Source of the DNA: Thermobifida cellulosilytica TB100
Lineage (GTDB): Bacteria; Actinomycetota; Actinomycetes; Streptosporangiales; Streptosporangiaceae
Direction of reading: 5' to 3'
Length of the DNA: 64,000 nucleotides
Assembly: GCF_001517975.1 (NCBI RefSeq)
Contig: NZ_KQ950180.1
Span: forward strand, 131,722 to 195,721
Shown here: positions 4,167 to 33,657 of the stretch, one piece after another
Layout of the letters: each line of letters starts with the position of its first letter
Position numbering within the stretch: position 1 is the first letter of the stretch
The notes under the pieces: model-generated
What the model saw: the letters and a program-made list of their open reading frames with translations, nothing else
Told to the model about the DNA's origin: nothing
Database searches by the model: none
Made by a program: the position numbers and the translations under genes

Positions 4167-4855
4167 CGCTCCTCCCCCGCCACGTAGTGCAGTACCGCGG
4201 TCCCGCCCACGTCGCGGGCGGACACCAGCCGCAGCGGCCGGTCGGGGCGCTGCGGGAACGCCCCGGGGTGGACGAAGCGGGGCGCGTCGGCGTCGCCGAC
4301 GAAGAACGGCGCGACCGCCAGGCGCAGCTCGTCGGCGAGGTCCTGAGTGAGGAACGCGGTGTGCACCGCTCCCCCGCCCTCTACCAGGAGTCGGCGCACC
4401 CCGCGGCGGGCCAGGTCGGCCAGGACGGTGTCGAGCCGCACCGGCTGCCCCGCCGCCACCACCTCGACGCCGTCGAGTCCGCCGAGGCGCCGCTCGGCGG
4501 CGGCCCGCGCACCGTCGGCCACGTACACCAGGCATCCGGCGTCGCCGGTGGTGAAGACCCGCGCCGCGGGGTCCAGGTCGCCGCTGCTGCTCAGCACCAC
4601 CTTGCGCAGGTGGGCGGTGCGGCCCTCGGCGCGCCTGCGCCGCTGCCGTTCGGGGGAGCGCACCAGCAGCCGCGGGTTGTCGGCGCGCACGGTGCCCGCG
4701 CCCACGAGAATCGCGTCGCAGGACGCGCGCAGTTCGTCGACCTCGTCGAAGTCGGCCTCGCTGGACAGGCGCAGCCGGTCGGGGGAGGCGTCGTCGATGC
4801 GGCCGTCCAGCGACACGGCGCAACTGAGGATGACTCGGGGGCGTTCGGCGGTCAT
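4163..4855 (-). CDS. RibD C-terminal-like pyrimidine reductase
   Basis: This 230-residue protein matches the NAD(P)H-dependent reductase half of RibD (dihydrofolate-reductase-like fold). It has CAVSLDGRIDD near the N-terminus, the SCDAILVGAGTVRADNPRL motif and the LLVEGGGAVHTAFL motif typical of the family. The predicted reaction is reduction of the ribosyl side chain of the deaminated pyrimidine in riboflavin synthesis. I chose ATG 4855 because the extension upstream is low-complexity. It heads a two-gene operon whose second gene is the deaminase half. No other rib genes are nearby. Confidence 0.82.
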   Translation of the reverse strand: MTAERPRVILSCAVSLDGRIDDASPDRLRLSSEADFDEVDELRASCDAILVGAGTVRADNPRLLVRSPERQRRRRAEGRTAHLRKVVLSSSGDLDPAARVFTTGDAGCLVYVADGARAAAERRLGGLDGVEVVAAGQPVRLDTVLADLARRGVRRLLVEGGGAVHTAFLTQDLADELRLAVAPFFVGDADAPRFVHPGAFPQRPDRPLRLVSARDVGGTAVLHYVAGEER

Positions 4856-5001
4856 GGCGACCAGGCTAGCGGCCCGCGCCCGGCTCCCCCGCGCCGCTGC
4901 AAGCCGCGCCGTTCGGAAGGCCCCCTGCGCCGCACCACACAAACTGACCGGACGGTATGTTGCTGACCGTCCCCGGTCGACTGCGAGTCAGGAGTGACCC
5001 C

Positions 5002-6177
5002 ATGACCGACGTGTACGTCCTCGACGCGGTACGCACCCCCTTCGGCCGCTACGGCGGCGCCCTGTCCGGAATCCGGCCCGACGACCTGGCCGCGCACGTG
5101 CTGCGCGCGCTCGCCGCACGCTCCCCCGGCCTGGACCCCGCCGCCGTGGACGACGTCTACCTCGGCGACGCCAACGGCGCCGGGGAGGACAACCGCAACG
5201 TGGCCCGCATGGCGGCGCTGCTGGCGGGCTGGCCCACCTCGGTCCCCGGAGCCACCCTCAACCGGCTGTGCGGCTCCGGCATGGAGGCCGTGATCGCCGC
5301 CAACCGCGCGATCGCGGTGGGCGACGCCTCCCTGGTGGTGGCCGGCGGCGTGGAGTCGATGAGCCGCGCACCGTGGGTGCTGCCCAAGCCCGCCCGGGGC
5401 TTCCCGGCGGGGCACGAGACCCTGCACTCCACCACCCTGGGCTGGCGCATGGTCAACCCGGCCATGCCGGAGCGGTGGACCGTGTCCCTGGGCGAGAGCA
5501 CCGAACAGGTCGCCGCCCGCTACGGCATCGGCCGCGCCGAGCAGGACGCCTTCGCGCTGCGCAGCCACGAGCGCGCGGCCCGCGCCTGGGCCGCCGGGGT
5601 CTTCGACGCCGAGATCGCCCAGGTGCCGGGCGCGGAACTGGAGCGGGACGAGAGCATCCGCGAGACCTCCGCCGAGCAACTGGCCACCCTCAAGCCCGCG
5701 TTCCGCCCCGACGGCACCATCACCGCGGGCAACGCCTCCCCCCTCAACGACGGCGCGGCCGCCCTGCTCGTCGGGGACGCCGCGGCGGCCGAGCGGATCG
5801 GCCGCGACCCCCTGGCCCGGATCGTCAGCCGCGGGGTGGCCGCCGTGGACCCCGACGTCTTCGGCATCGGCCCGGTCCAGGCGGCCGAGACCGCCCTGCG
5901 CCGGGCCGGGATCGGCTGGGACGACCTGTCCGTGGTGGAGCTCAACGAGGCGTTCGCCGCCCAGTCGCTGGCCTGTCTGAAGCTGTGGCCGGACCTGGAC
6001 CCCAAGATCGTCAACCCCAACGGCGGGGCCATCGCCATCGGCCACCCGCTGGGCGCCTCCGGTGCCCGCATCGTCGGCACGCTCGCGCACGAGCTGCGCC
6101 GCCGCGGCGGCGGGTGGGGGCTGGCCGCCCTCTGCATCGGCGTGGGCCAGGGGCTCGCCGTGGTGCTGCACGCCTGA
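5002..6177 (+). CDS. Acetyl-CoA acyltransferase (thiolase, beta-ketoadipyl-CoA type)
   Basis: This 391-residue degradative thiolase has the nucleophile Cys90 in LNRLCGSGMEA, the histidine in NPNGGAIAIGHPLGASG near residue 350, and the second catalytic Cys in LCIGVGQG near the C-terminus. Length matches the family. PcaF/PaaJ-like proteins, which cleave 3-oxoadipyl-CoA to succinyl-CoA and acetyl-CoA, look closest because of the DDVYLGDANGAGEDNRNVARMAALLAG stretch and the next gene, a PcaD-like lactonase. General acetoacetyl-CoA thiolase activity cannot be excluded. The start has GGAG about 8 nt upstream. No other pca genes are present in the window. Confidence 0.85.
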   Translation: MTDVYVLDAVRTPFGRYGGALSGIRPDDLAAHVLRALAARSPGLDPAAVDDVYLGDANGAGEDNRNVARMAALLAGWPTSVPGATLNRLCGSGMEAVIAANRAIAVGDASLVVAGGVESMSRAPWVLPKPARGFPAGHETLHSTTLGWRMVNPAMPERWTVSLGESTEQVAARYGIGRAEQDAFALRSHERAARAWAAGVFDAEIAQVPGAELERDESIRETSAEQLATLKPAFRPDGTITAGNASPLNDGAAALLVGDAAAAERIGRDPLARIVSRGVAAVDPDVFGIGPVQAAETALRRAGIGWDDLSVVELNEAFAAQSLACLKLWPDLDPKIVNPNGGAIAIGHPLGASGARIVGTLAHELRRRGGGWGLAALCIGVGQGLAVVLHA

Positions 6178-26106: not shown

Positions 26107-26163
26107 CCGGCCATGCTGCCACAGCGGCGGCGCAGGCGGGCACCCGCCGGCCTTCCGGGGCCC

Positions 26164-26997
26164 TCATCCGCCGTCGACGGCGGCGCGCCACAGGGGGGCG
26201 CAGTCGGGGTGTTCGGCCGGCTCGGGCCAGCGCTCGGGAACCGGAGGGCACGGGCGCAGCGGCGGGTTGCGCCACCGCAGCGCCCCGGGGGTGACCGTGG
26301 TCCCCCGCTCGTCCCACCCGGTGTGCTCGCACAGGGAGTGCGGGGGGCGCAGGCACAGTCCCCCCGACAGCATGTGGTGGTACCACCAGCCGACCGCCCA
26401 GAGGTTGCGCGGACCGGCCTCGGCCGCCATCTTGGGCATGTCGCTGCCGTAGCGTTCGATGTCGACGCCCCGGGCCGCGCACCGCTCCATGGTCTCCACG
26501 GCGGGGCGGTCCATCCCCTCCCAGGCGCGCCGCCAGGTCCCCCAGACCCAGCACTCGGCCTTGCCGTCGAAGTAGGGGCGTCCGTCCAGACCGTCGGGGG
26601 TGATCCGCGGGTGGGTCCACGCGGTCACGCTCATCACCCGCGGGTCGTCGGCGTAGTGCTCGAGCGCGGCGGTCAGGTAGGTGTAGGCGCCCTGCTGGCA
26701 CACCAGGTCGTCCTCGACGAAGATCGCGGCCTCGTACCGGTCCAGCACCCGGCTCGCCCCGTCCACCACGGAACGCCCCAGCCCCAGGTTGACGGGGCGC
26801 TCGTGGACCTCCACCGGGCACCACGACACCTCACGCAGCAGGCGCCGGACCTGCGTGACACCGGGGACGTCCCCGGTGTCGCGCGGACCGTCGCTGAAGG
26901 CGATGAGGAGCGGGACCCCGTCGGCCCGCAGCGCCGCCAGGGTCTGCTCCAGCAGGTCCGGGCGGCGGAAGGCGAAGACGACGACGGGGACGGTCAC
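26164..26997 (-). CDS. GT-A-fold glycosyltransferase in RiPP locus
   Basis: This 277-residue protein begins VTVPVVVFAFRRPDLLEQTLAALRADG, a nucleotide-sugar-binding beta-alpha unit. It has the metal-binding motif IFVEDDLVCQQGAYTYL and an acceptor-side segment FDGKAECWVWGTWRRAWEGMD rich in aromatics. The pattern is that of the GNT-I-like (GT13-like) or hypothetical GT2-related transferases found in actinobacterial and cyanobacterial clusters. The start GTG overlaps the radical SAM stop by 4 bases (GTGA), so it is co-translated with the maturase. A natural role would be glycosylation of the matured peptide or a carrier. Donor and acceptor are unknown. Confidence 0.78.
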   Translation of the reverse strand: MTVPVVVFAFRRPDLLEQTLAALRADGVPLLIAFSDGPRDTGDVPGVTQVRRLLREVSWCPVEVHERPVNLGLGRSVVDGASRVLDRYEAAIFVEDDLVCQQGAYTYLTAALEHYADDPRVMSVTAWTHPRITPDGLDGRPYFDGKAECWVWGTWRRAWEGMDRPAVETMERCAARGVDIERYGSDMPKMAAEAGPRNLWAVGWWYHHMLSGGLCLRPPHSLCEHTGWDERGTTVTPGALRWRNPPLRPCPPVPERWPEPAEHPDCAPLWRAAVDGG

Positions 26998-28187
26998 GGT
27001 GCGAGGGCCGATCCGGTGCGCCGTTGCAGGTGCCGCAGCAGCACGTCGACGGTGGCTTTCTTGTGCACCCGGCAGGTCCGCGTCTCGGCGACGTCGAAGC
27101 GGCCGGTCTCGAAGAACTTGTTCGACGGGGACCCGCCCCCGCAGAACGCCCAGTAGTCGCACGTCTCCCGGCACTTCTGGACGCCGGCCGCGATCTCGTC
27201 GCGGACCCCCCGGAAGGTGGGGTGCTCGAGCATCTCGTCCAGGGGCCGGTCCACCAGGTTCCCCATCGCGAACCCCGCACCGTCGGCCGCACGCGCGGTG
27301 ACCAGTTCGGGGCAGAAGGTGCTGACGTTGCCCAGGTGGTCCACGTTGAAGATGTGAAAGGGCTGGTTGGTGGTGTTCACCGGGTCCGCGCCGCCGTAGG
27401 CCAGTGCGGCGGTGTTCGTCCACACCTCGCGGATCTTGACGGCTCCCCGGTGGTGCTCCGCACGCTCCAGCAGGCGGGCGAGGAACTCCTCGTAGCGTTC
27501 GGTGGAGTCGGCGGAGCCCAGTGACGAGGTGCGGTTGACCCCCTCGATCTCGTCGATGTTGAACCCGACCTCCCTGATCCCGTGGTCGACGAAGAAGTCG
27601 TAGAACTCCTCGGGGTGGTCCAGGGTGAAGTCGGTCAGGACGCTGATCGCGCCGAACCCGATCCCCGCCTCCTGGAGCAGCCCGACCCCCCGCATCACCG
27701 CGGCGTGCGTGGGACCGCCCCTGCGGGTGGTGCGGACCCGGTCGTGGATGAACGCCGGGCCGTCCACGCTCACTCCCATGCCGACCCGGTGCCGCCGGAT
27801 GAGATCCACCCAGGCGCCGTCGAGCAGTGTGGCGTTGGTCTGGAAACCGTGCTGGACCCGCCGCCCGTGGCGCTCGGCGGCACGGGCGGCGGTCTCGAAA
27901 GCCTCCTCGTAGAATTCCCGCGGCATCGCCAGGGGTTCACCGAGGTGCCACAGGAACACCACTGAATCCCCGACCAGTGAACTGGAGAGAATTCCCGAAC
28001 ACACGGCGCGCAGTACTTCCGGGCGCATTTTCACGGTCCGGTGGCGTTCGGGAAGATAGCAGTACGAACAGTCGAGATTGCAGAAGGTCGTCGGCTGGAG
28101 GACGACCAGCGTCCGCCGGGGTTCCGCCGCGGGCGCGTCAGGGGTTTCTACTCGTACCACTGCGTGAACTGCACCCAGTCCGACCAT
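26994..28187 (-). CDS. Radical SAM/SPASM peptide maturase, GrrM-like (cyclophane-forming type predicted)
   Basis: The protein has the CX3CX2C cluster motif at Cys36, Cys40 and Cys43 in TTFCNLDCSYCYLPER. A SAM-binding GEP-like segment is WHLGEPLAMP. The C-terminal SPASM region (about residues 290-375) contains STFCPEL, KCRETCDYWAFCGGGSPSNKFFE and TRTCRVH, for auxiliary 4Fe-4S clusters. The LQPTTFCNLDCSYCYLPER opening is characteristic of GrrM/OscB-type maturases that crosslink aromatic residues. Its 5' end overlaps the precursor gene (stop at 28148). Start 28187 or GTG 28160 are both possible, and neither has a clear RBS, consistent with translational coupling. It is followed by an overlapping glycosyltransferase. 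Confidence 0.88.
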   Translation of the reverse strand: MVGLGAVHAVVRVETPDAPAAEPRRTLVVLQPTTFCNLDCSYCYLPERHRTVKMRPEVLRAVCSGILSSSLVGDSVVFLWHLGEPLAMPREFYEEAFETAARAAERHGRRVQHGFQTNATLLDGAWVDLIRRHRVGMGVSVDGPAFIHDRVRTTRRGGPTHAAVMRGVGLLQEAGIGFGAISVLTDFTLDHPEEFYDFFVDHGIREVGFNIDEIEGVNRTSSLGSADSTERYEEFLARLLERAEHHRGAVKIREVWTNTAALAYGGADPVNTTNQPFHIFNVDHLGNVSTFCPELVTARAADGAGFAMGNLVDRPLDEMLEHPTFRGVRDEIAAGVQKCRETCDYWAFCGGGSPSNKFFETGRFDVAETRTCRVHKKATVDVLLRHLQRRTGSALAP

Positions 28188-28375
28188 TCCTGGACCGCCG
28201 TCTCGCCGGTCGGGGAGACGCGCGCGGGAAGCAGTTCGGCGAGCAGTCCGGAGTTTTCGGGGGCGCCCAGCGCCTCCCGCAGTTGACCGATTCGTGCGGC
28301 CATCGGCAGAGGGGAGCCTTTGGGCTCAGGGAACACAGCCATCGGGGTCTCACAATTCTCCGGTTCCGGGGACAC
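28148..28375 (-). CDS. RiPP precursor peptide with four tandem aromatic-X-X motifs
   Basis: This is a 75-residue peptide (GTG start), or 64 residues if translation begins at ATG 28342. The leader contains a helical, leucine-rich stretch (MAARIGQLREALGAPENSG, then LLAELLPARV). After PTGETAVQE the last 12 residues are exactly WSD-WVQ-FTQ-WYE: four consecutive aromatic-X-X triplets, with Asp, Gln, Gln, Glu as third residues, ending at the stop. That is the motif modified by three-residue-cyclophane-forming radical SAM enzymes. Its stop lies inside the start region of the radical SAM gene. TAGACT 5 nt before GTG 28375 would give a leaderless mRNA. Cys8 of the long form is the only cysteine. Confidence 0.8.
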   Translation of the reverse strand: MSPEPENCETPMAVFPEPKGSPLPMAARIGQLREALGAPENSGLLAELLPARVSPTGETAVQEWSDWVQFTQWYE

Positions 28376-28593
28376 CGTTCAGTCTAGGTCCCGGTGCCGC
28401 AGCGCAGAAGGTCAAGGCCCGAAGAAATTTTCTCCAGAGGATTTTTCATTCTTTTTGATGAAGATCTCCGAGGACGCGCCGGGGCGCGGGCCCCGGCGGA
28501 GGGGCGGGGACGGCGGCCCGCACGGCCGGGGCGGGCGGCGCCGGACTCAGTACTCTTGGACCGTCGCCCCGAACGCCGTGGAGGAGAGCCGGG

Positions 28594-31087: not shown

Positions 31088-31891
31088 TCAGCGCCGGACG
31101 AGCGGCTCCAGGTGGGGACGCTTGGGCTGGAGCCCGTCGCCCGAGGAGCGGCCGGTCAGCCGCCGGTGGATCCACGGCACCAGGTGCTGGCGCGCCCACA
31201 CCAGGTCCTCCTGGCGGGCCCGCCGCCAGGGCTGCGGCGGCTCCGGGGGCCAGGGCTCGTCCCAGTTCCCCTCGGCCGGCACACCGAGCACCTCGCACAC
31301 CCGCAGCGCCAGCCTGCGGTGCGCCTCCGCGGACAGGTGCAGCCGGTCGCTGCTCCAGGCCCGGCGGTCCTGGAAGATCTTCATGCTCCACAGGTCCACC
31401 ACCGCGCAGCCGTAGCGGTCGGCGATGGCGCGCAGGTGCATGTTGTAGGTCGCGACCTTGCCCCGCAGGTGCTTCATGACCGGCTGGAACCCGGTGTCGA
31501 ACCCGGTGAAGACCACCACGTCCGCCCCTGCGTCGCGGAGTCTGCGCACCCCCGTCTCGAAGGCGTCGGCGAGCGCGTCGGGGTCCGATCCGGGGCGCAG
31601 GATGTCGTTGCCGCCCCCGCAGAGGGTGACCAGGTCCGGGCGGAGTTCCACCGCGCGGGGCAACTGCTCGGTGAGGATCTGGCGCAGCAGCTTGCCGCGC
31701 ACGGCCAGGTTGGCGTAGCGCAGCTCGCCCGTGTGCTGGGCCAGGTGTTCGGCGAAGCGGTCCGCCCAGCCGCGGTAGCGGCCGCGGGGGGTGTCCGCGC
31801 TGTCCGGGTAGGGGTCGTCGAGGCCCTCGGTGAAGCTGTCGCCGAGGGCCACGTAGGAGAGGATGTCCTTCCCGATCTGAAAGCCGCTCAT
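31088..31891 (-). CDS. SGNH/GDSL-family hydrolase (copy 1)
   Basis: This 267-residue esterase/lipase-fold enzyme has block I YVALGDSFTEGLDDPYP with the nucleophile Ser, block III LCGGGNDILRPG with the oxyanion Asn, and block V SDRLHLSAEAHRRLA with the Asp-x-x-His pair. There is no signal peptide, so it acts in the cytoplasm. It is paralogous to the gene 117 bases upstream on the same strand, sharing RYANLAVRGKLLRQ and a C-terminal WIHRRLTGRSSGD. It has its own start region with AT-rich sequence upstream. The substrate is unknown; actinobacterial relatives are annotated as lipases. Confidence 0.88.
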   Translation of the reverse strand: MSGFQIGKDILSYVALGDSFTEGLDDPYPDSADTPRGRYRGWADRFAEHLAQHTGELRYANLAVRGKLLRQILTEQLPRAVELRPDLVTLCGGGNDILRPGSDPDALADAFETGVRRLRDAGADVVVFTGFDTGFQPVMKHLRGKVATYNMHLRAIADRYGCAVVDLWSMKIFQDRRAWSSDRLHLSAEAHRRLALRVCEVLGVPAEGNWDEPWPPEPPQPWRRARQEDLVWARQHLVPWIHRRLTGRSSGDGLQPKRPHLEPLVRR

Positions 31892-32008: not shown

Positions 32009-32809
32009 TCAGCCGCTCGCTTCGAACTGCTCCTCGGGCCGGTACTTCTCCAGGTCGGGGCGCTTGGCGGTGACCGAGTCGCCGGAGGAGCGGCCGGTCA
32101 GCCGCCGGTGGACCCACGGCGCCAGGTGCTCGCGCACCCAGCGCGCGTCCTCGCGCAGCGCCCGCGACCGCGGCAGCGGCTCCGCCTCGGGCCAGGGCTC
32201 GTCCCAGCGCTCCTGTGTGGGCACGCCGAGCACCTCGCACACCCGCAGCGCCAGCCTGCGGTGGCCCTCCGCGGACAGGTGCAGCCGGTCGGCGTCCCAG
32301 GCCCGCGGATCGGTCAGCACCGCCATGGACCACTGGTCGACCAGGTGGCAGCCGTGCCGGTCGGCGATGGCGCGGATGTTGAGGTAGTAGCGGGCGAACC
32401 GGCCGATGAGCCCCCGCATGTACCCGGTGGAGATGTTGACGCCGGTGAACAGCACCACCTCGGCGCCGACCGCGCGCAGCCTGCGCACCCCGATCTCCAG
32501 GGCGCGCGCCAGCCGGTCGGGGTCGCCGCCCGGCCGCAGCAGGTCGTTGCCGCCCGCGCTCAGCGTCGCCAGGGTGGGGCGCAGCTCCACCGCGCGGGGC
32601 AACTGCTCCTCCATCACCTGGCGCAGCAGCTTGCCGCGCACGGCCAGGTTGGCGTAGCGCACCTGGCCCGAGTACCGCGCCAGGTGCGCGGCGAAGCGGT
32701 CCGCCCAGCCGCGCGGCGTGCCGTCGGGGTACCAGTCGCCCACGCCCTCGGTGAAGCTGTCGCCGACGGCCACGTAGTCGACCGGGATCCCGGGGCCGAT
32801 CGCGCCCAT
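32009..32809 (-). CDS. SGNH/GDSL-family hydrolase (copy 2)
   Basis: This 266-residue paralogue of the neighbouring hydrolase has block I YVAVGDSFTEGVGDWYP, block III LSAGGNDLLRPGGD and block V ADRLHLSAEGHRRLA. It is cytoplasmic, without a signal peptide. Its ATG overlaps the uppS stop by one base (TGATG), making it the third gene of a recO-uppS-hydrolase operon. Copy 1 lies downstream with its own probable promoter, so the pair looks like a tandem duplication later separated in regulation. A weak CCGAC-TCTT-GTCGG hairpin (31948-31961) lies in the gap. Substrate unknown. Confidence 0.88.
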   Translation of the reverse strand: MGAIGPGIPVDYVAVGDSFTEGVGDWYPDGTPRGWADRFAAHLARYSGQVRYANLAVRGKLLRQVMEEQLPRAVELRPTLATLSAGGNDLLRPGGDPDRLARALEIGVRRLRAVGAEVVLFTGVNISTGYMRGLIGRFARYYLNIRAIADRHGCHLVDQWSMAVLTDPRAWDADRLHLSAEGHRRLALRVCEVLGVPTQERWDEPWPEAEPLPRSRALREDARWVREHLAPWVHRRLTGRSSGDSVTAKRPDLEKYRPEEQFEASG

Positions 32810-33657
32810 CAGCGCTCCCCCGCGTCCGCGGAGGACGGCGGCGGTTCCACCGGGTTGGGTTCGGCTCCCCCGTAGCGGCGGTCCCGGCTGGCGTAGATCT
32901 CGCAGGCGTGCCAGAAGTGCCGCCGGTCGAAGTCGGGCCAGAGCGTGTCGAGGAACACGAACTCCGCGTAGGAGGACTGCCAGAGCAGGAAGTTGGAGAA
33001 GCGCTGCTCGCCCGAGGAGCGCACGAACAGGTCCACGTCGGGGATGTCCGGCTGGTACAGGTAGCGGGCGAGCGTGGCCTCGGTGACCCGCTTCGGGTCG
33101 AGGCGGCCCGCGGCGACGTCGCGGGCCAGCGCGGCGGCGGCGTCGGCGATCTCGGCGCGGCCCCCGTAGTTGACGCAGAACTGAAGGGTGAGCTTGGTGT
33201 TGTGCTTGGTCAGCTCCTCGGCGTCGGCGAGCTCCTTGATGACGCTCTTCCACAGCCGCCCCTGCCGGCCCGCCCAGCGCACCCGGACGCCGCGCGCGTG
33301 CAGTTCGTCGCGGCGGCGGCGGATCACGTCGCGGTTGAAGCCCATGAGGAAGCGCACCTCGTCGGGCGAGCGCTTCCAGTTCTCGGTGGAGAAGGCGTAG
33401 GCGGACAGGTAGGGCACGCCCAGCTCCAGCGCCCCCTCGATCACGTCGAAGAGGGAGGACTCGCCCGCCTTGTGGCCCTCGGTGCGGGGCAGCCCGCGCT
33501 GCTTGGCCCACCGGCCGTTGCCGTCCATGACGATGGCCACGTGGCGGGGGATCAGCTCCCGGGGCAGTTCGGGGGGCCGGGCGCCGCTGGGGTGCGGTCG
33601 CGGCGGGACCGGCTCCTGTCGGGCGGTCCGGGACGAGAAGGCGGTGTTGGGACTCAC
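32809..33657 (-). CDS. uppS: Isoprenyl transferase (undecaprenyl diphosphate synthase family)
   Basis: This 282-residue cis-prenyltransferase builds long-chain polyprenyl diphosphates for cell-wall lipid carriers. It has [24 protein letters not shown] with catalytic Asp45, [34 protein letters not shown], and the substrate/metal-binding [30 protein letters not shown]. The first 35 residues are a Pro/Arg-rich extension common in actinobacteria. GTG 33657 overlaps the recO stop by 4 bases. Actinobacteria often have two or more paralogues of differing chain length, so undecaprenyl versus decaprenyl output is not settled. Confidence 0.94.

Follow-up and report, generated by a model that had tools for sequence, protein, structure and literature searches.

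The window analysed here, 64,000 nt of the Thermobifida cellulosilytica TB100 genome, contains three overlapping genes on the minus strand: a short gene for a precursor peptide (28148–28342), a gene for a radical SAM/SPASM maturase of the GrrM/OscB family (26994–28187) and a gene for a predicted GT-A-type, GnT-I/POMGnT1-like glycosyltransferase (GT; 26164–26997). Both overlaps given in the initial annotation were found on this strand: the maturase gene overlaps the precursor gene with its own start or with an alternative GTG start at 28160, and the GT gene, which has a GTG start, overlaps the maturase stop codon by 4 bases (GTGA). The cassette is bordered at one end by ABM-domain and GlyRS genes and at the opposite end by a DUF6703 gene and an operon for a zinc-type ABC transporter, in agreement with the earlier remark that no protease or exporter gene is adjacent. 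A scan for promoters and terminators found no element. Elsewhere in the window, two adjacent and similar SGNH-hydrolase-like ORFs (31088–31891 and about 32010–32830, minus strand) are apparently a tandem duplication.

At its full extent the precursor ORF spans 28148–28375 (minus strand), with GTG at 28375, and its C-terminal end reads AVQEWSDWVQFTQWYE. The in-frame ATG at 28342, which yields a peptide of 64 aa (MAVFPEPKGSPLPMAARIGQLREALGAPENSGLLAELLPARVSPTGETAVQEWSDWVQFTQWYE), is the more likely start judging from the homologous precursors in genomes G672 and G198; it is preferred because the G672 homologue also begins with MAV...MPERVRDLR and runs into the same leader. The leader carries a helix motif R-h-x-x-h-R-x-x-h (RIGQLREAL, 28268–28294, minus strand), and the motif is present in 10 of 13 precursors compared. 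Since the motif is common to most precursors located beside GrrM maturases, it supports recognition by this maturase family. Direct reading of the ORF confirmed the core, four tandem triplets WSD-WVQ-FTQ-WYE (28151–28186, minus strand) that extend up to the stop codon. The precursor had no family match in NCBIfam (E ≤ 1) or Pfam, and the precursors of G198 and L019 (see below) matched no NCBIfam family at E ≤ 0.1. Comparison with curated families, suggested in the initial annotation, thus placed the maturase with GrrM/OscB but left the precursor without a curated precursor family.

The GT was searched for in all 343 genomes of the family and detected only in the window genome and in two genomes of one other genus, G198 and G672. 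In both of the latter the precursor gene is upstream and the GT gene downstream of the maturase gene, and the maturase frame of G672 appears interrupted (the assembly is fragmented). A scan with the maturase led to one more set in an Acidobacteriota MAG (L019), where genes for the GT, a class I methyltransferase, the precursor and a GrrM maturase form one tight run. The GTs of G198, G672 and L019 are, respectively, 71%, 69% and about 62–63% identical to the window GT; maturase identity is 68% for G198 and 41% for L019. In total, we have four examples of the precursor, maturase and GT set, two of them from one genus.

A short ORF in GC-rich DNA with no HMM match might not encode the maturase substrate at all, its aromatic tail being produced by a chance frame. 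We consider this extremely improbable, given that leader, core and position are conserved at three other loci, one of them in another phylum. The precursor with its triplet register recurs beside a homologous maturase and GT in each of the three other genomes, and is therefore more than a chance ORF.

Two side observations concern the surroundings of these homologous sets. In L019 the methyltransferase gene lies between the GT and precursor genes (L019:4967–5632), and a downstream fragment (L019:7976–8608) is similar to the C-terminal part of another GrrM-like maturase. The cassettes of G198 and G672 have STAND-type genes at their flanks, which that of the window does not (L053:6069–7988, minus strand; L053:10905–13526, plus strand; L054:4493–6406, minus strand): a divergent HTH and NB-ARC gene is located upstream in both genomes, and an NB-ARC-TPR gene downstream in G198. 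These flanks recall the conflict systems that carry FxSxx peptides (PMC7159879).

The cores of the four GT-linked precursors can be aligned triplet by triplet. The window core WSD WVQ FTQ WYE corresponds to WSD WRQ FDQ WPQ (SY) in G198, WSD WTQ WNQ WPQ (SY) in G672 and FCD WQQ FSN FNQ (AV) in L019. All four follow the register Ar-[S/C]-D, W-x-Q, Ar-x-[Q/N], Ar-x-[Q/E]. The first position of a triplet is W or F throughout; the third is D in triplet 1, Q in triplet 2, Q or N in triplet 3 and Q or E in triplet 4. The middle residue of triplet 1 is Ser in three cores and Cys in L019, while the middle residues of triplets 2–4 are variable. Homologues with varying numbers of triplets, which had been anticipated initially, were not seen; all homologues found carry four, a constancy within this subgroup.

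The initial annotation laid emphasis on the tandem aromatic-x-x array. The array alone is nothing new, as arrays covering the core are ordinary beside other GrrM maturases: the L010 precursor has eleven triplets and L023 carries the uninterrupted run WYN WGN WPN WNN WRN WFN WLN. The features that differ here are thus the GT and the Gln register. Two positions after W or F, 20 other GrrM/AmcB precursor tails have Asn in 108 of 136 cases and Gln in one, compared with Gln in 10 of the 16 triplets of GT-linked precursors. The Fisher test of this enrichment (10 of 15 triplets, the FCD triplet of L019 left out) gives p of about 3e-11, a value that is only indicative because triplets within one peptide are not independent.

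Assignment of the maturase to a group of enzymes that form cyclophanes, proposed initially, was borne out by a curated cut-off. The protein scores 409.9 bits against TIGR04261 (GrrM/OscB; cut-off 310, residues 30–388) and 307.7 bits against NF041718 (AmcB), below the cut-off of 425; it is therefore filed as GrrM/OscB and not as AmcB. It also matches PF04055, and its relatives from G198 and L019 score 374.5 and 434.3 bits, respectively, against TIGR04261. The CX3CX2C radical SAM cluster motif described earlier was located as C36-x3-C40-x2-C43 (CNLDCSYC; 28059–28082, minus strand). Together with C339, C343, C349 and C372 (27072–27173, minus strand), these make seven Cys that are invariant in the window maturase and 17 relatives; other invariant residues of the family are retained as well in this 18-sequence comparison. 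As to the ‘Cys-rich SPASM’ C-terminus, the four invariant Cys fit one auxiliary-cluster set, but the Pfam SPASM score of 16.6 bits is below the cut-off of 21.5. Separately, residue C292 (about 27312–27314, minus strand) is Cys in the window and G198 maturases (TFCPEL) and Ser (TFSPELL) in 16 other aligned relatives; the G672 maturase also has TFCPEL. This is an extra Cys near the SPASM region, specific to the clade.

Cross-linking by the window maturase is predicted from its family membership and the substrate pattern. OscB is reported to bond Trp C7 with the beta carbon of Asn or Asp, and Phe C4 with the Asn beta carbon; the position-3 partners listed in the review that describes this are Arg, Asn, Asp, Ser and Ala (PMC11002830). 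As Gln and Glu are missing from these partners, only triplet 1, with Asp, has a documented one. It is conceivable, then, that a cross-link forms only in W-S-D or in a subset of triplets, with W-x-Q, F-x-Q and W-x-E serving in recognition or structure and a mono- or bicyclic peptide as the product; the identity of the triplet 1 Asp in 4/4 precursors and the restriction of the OscB chemistry in PMC11002830 to Asn and Asp speak for it. Still, an aromatic residue and Q, N or E at position 3 are kept in register in all four triplets in two phyla while the middle residues vary, as in a substrate, and we hold this alternative to be a minority possibility.

The maturase might also form another linkage, such as a Trp ether or overlapping Trp-Trp/Trp-Lys bonds as in darobactin and dynobactin, since the models of DynA, DarW and DarE detect it as a remote relative (146, 117 and 83 bits). 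These scores are far below the respective cut-offs (450, 650 and 650), whereas that of GrrM/OscB is passed, and the triplet register agrees with GrrM substrates; such a linkage seems quite improbable to us.

Several other GrrM-like loci showed features of their own. Upstream of a remote GrrM-like maturase, two contigs from Rickettsiales MAGs have in common an ORF (L033 around 4791–5063, L034 around 4743–4991) that ends in a tail rich in Cys, Asp and His (CYCDGG...HHSDCHSDCYSDK), a possible RiPP precursor of a different kind. On a plasmid of Streptomyces sp. ADI95-16 (L082), a GrrM maturase gene is located among genes of lanthionine synthetase C, lantibiotic dehydratase and thiopeptide-type biosynthesis, possibly a hybrid cluster. 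An ORF upstream of another GrrM-like maturase gene (L042:656–1480) contains the run DSFYDSFSDSFSDQFGDGFTD, in part of which an aromatic residue occurs every four residues, unlike the triplet spacing.

Among solved proteins, profile comparison places the GT13 enzymes GnT-I and POMGnT1 nearest to the GT, though both are remote. Profile search gave E-values of 2.6e-4 for POMGnT1 and 0.05 for GnT-I, with only the N-terminal nucleotide-binding half aligned, and the Pfam GNT-I score (15.6 bits) is below the 25.4 cut-off. An AlphaFold model built from the window and L019 sequences has a mean pLDDT of 50 and is good only over about the first 70 residues; the best PDB fold match of this low-confidence model is GnT-I. 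We take the N-terminal half to have a GT-A fold, a prediction to which the structure matches lend weak support. The acidic motif, predicted to bind metal, is EDD in the GTs of the window and L019 and EED in those of G198 and G672. Where distant bacterial relatives have DSWAxRW, the RiPP-linked GTs have N[L/T]WAxGW (D to N, R to G), a change that could mean altered catalysis or donor; the D to N replacement makes activity or donor handling uncertain.

Linkage of a glycosyltransferase to the maturase, noted initially as unusual, was confirmed and proved to be rare. Samples of Actinomycetes, Acidobacteriota, Myxococcota and Planctomycetota yielded no further close GT, and one Acidobacteriota sample yielded a close GT only in the genome of L019 itself; the set of precursor, maturase and GT is thus rare at this sampling depth. 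The window GT homologue was absent from the other GrrM loci fetched, except L019, and no GT was listed near the GrrM plasmid loci of Streptomyces, Nostoc and Phaeobacter, whose gene tables are incomplete. Viral contigs, considered as a source for a larger GT alignment, contained no relatives, and phage records had no GT match. Three matches of the DNA pattern for WSDWxQ[F/W]xQW in viral contigs were rejected as chance: all frames have stop codons, two are repetitive, and neither maturase nor GT accompanies them.

Distant GT relatives (25–37% identity) were found in many genomes; for two of these, an exopolysaccharide GT model gives a weak match. These relatives would fit a GT that makes surface glycans, was co-transferred with the RiPP genes and merely adjoins them, with no action on the peptide. 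We regard such a bystander role as unlikely. The GT gene is translationally coupled to the maturase gene through the 4-base overlap and is carried within a three-gene insertion (see below), its homologue occurs among the 343 family genomes only with the cassette, and in Acidobacteriota the same GT subtype accompanies the same core type beside a maturase of a different lineage.

This last point is seen in the maturase tree. In it, the maturases of the window, G198 and G672 group together as a clade (100/99) whose sister is a Nitrospirota maturase (96/97). The maturase of L019 is placed outside this clade, and the starred branches require the GT label to change at least twice. Since the 63% GT identity between the window and L019 is far above the 41% identity of the maturases, the GT appears to follow the core peptide and not the maturase lineage, a pattern suggested by a single distant case.

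In three congeners (G112, G087 and G040) the ABM and DUF6703 genes adjoin; the ends of the alignments are 12 to about 160 bases apart. The window has about 2.4 kb between these two genes (roughly 26128–28501), containing exactly the three cassette genes. Because the locus is absent and its flanks adjoin in all three congeners, the segment was probably gained by the window lineage, which is the simplest reading of the comparison; the three congeners may instead have lost it. The cassette is probably mobile. No repeats, target-site duplication or transposase were seen at the insertion edges.

Taken together, we consider it probable that the locus is a self-contained three-gene RiPP cassette of the triceptide kind, in which a leader-guided maturase would install up to four cyclophanes, the GT would add a sugar and the host would carry out trimming and export. 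The maturase is predicted to recognise the helical leader motif R-h-x-x-h-R-x-x-h; 5'-deoxyadenosyl radical chemistry would then form a bond from each aromatic ring to the beta carbon of residue i+2, producing up to four consecutive three-residue cyclophanes. W53-D55 would most likely be the most secure of them, followed by W56-Q58, F59-Q61 and W62-E64. Next, the GT would glycosylate the peptide, either cross-linked or still bearing its leader; the most plausible acceptor is the Ser in the middle of triplet 1 (Cys in the L019 homologue). Leader removal and export would depend on host functions encoded elsewhere. We observed directly the gene order, the overlaps, the maturase family, the triplet register and GT linkage across two phyla and the absence of the locus in congeners; from sequence comparison we infer each chemical step, the order of steps and the acceptor, including the number of cyclophanes, Trp-Gln bonding and glycosylation of the peptide. 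That the product is a secreted antagonistic or signalling peptide is a guess made with low confidence.

The closest known systems are the OscA/OscB triceptides (TIGR04261), which share with this locus the maturase family, a small precursor directly upstream, the leader helix motif and tandem aromatic-x-x triplets. They differ in position 3, mostly Asn as opposed to D/Q/Q(N)/Q(E) here; the loci of the window type have a GT and only four triplets, and the Acidobacteriota run has a methyltransferase in addition. AmcA/AmcB (NF041718) is likewise actinobacterial with a related maturase. However, precursors of the AmcA type follow the maturase and carry W/F-D-N motifs, and AmcB occupies a separate branch of the tree.

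Mycofactocin, an actinobacterial RiPP whose product is made by the radical SAM enzyme MftC and glycosylated by the linked GT MftF (PMC7491314), is an earlier example of a radical SAM RiPP pathway that includes a GT. It differs in chemistry (Val-Tyr decarboxylation and cyclisation), in its GT (a GT2 of 470 aa) and in its larger gene set. SunS was a weak fold match of the low-confidence model of the window GT. SunS-type S-glycosyltransferases act in the biosynthesis of glycocins, RiPPs glycosylated on Cys or Ser by a GT-A enzyme; to our knowledge, glycocins are made with no radical SAM maturase, have a disulfide scaffold and use a GT of a different family.

Our search of the open literature, which did not extend to the primary triceptide papers, turned up neither a GT-linked GrrM locus nor a case of Gln at position 3, so novelty is provisional. 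With this proviso, the GrrM/OscB kind of maturase and the tandem triplet arrays are known, and the predicted Gln bond partner and the linked GT are apparently new. Tentatively, the four loci may define a family of glycosylated triceptides, with an aryl-Gln/Glu cyclophane array made by a GrrM-type maturase, a sugar on the Ser or Cys of the first ring, and a minimal cassette, spread between phyla, that keeps GT and core together as its maturases are replaced.

The proposed pathway, with three genes in about 2.3 kb, is amenable to testing by co-expression. If the proposal is true, it would add glutamine to the residues that radical SAM enzymes forming cyclophanes can use as bond partners, and provide the first glycosylated triceptide found in this literature search; it would also mean that accessory enzymes can follow the core and not the lineage of the maturase.
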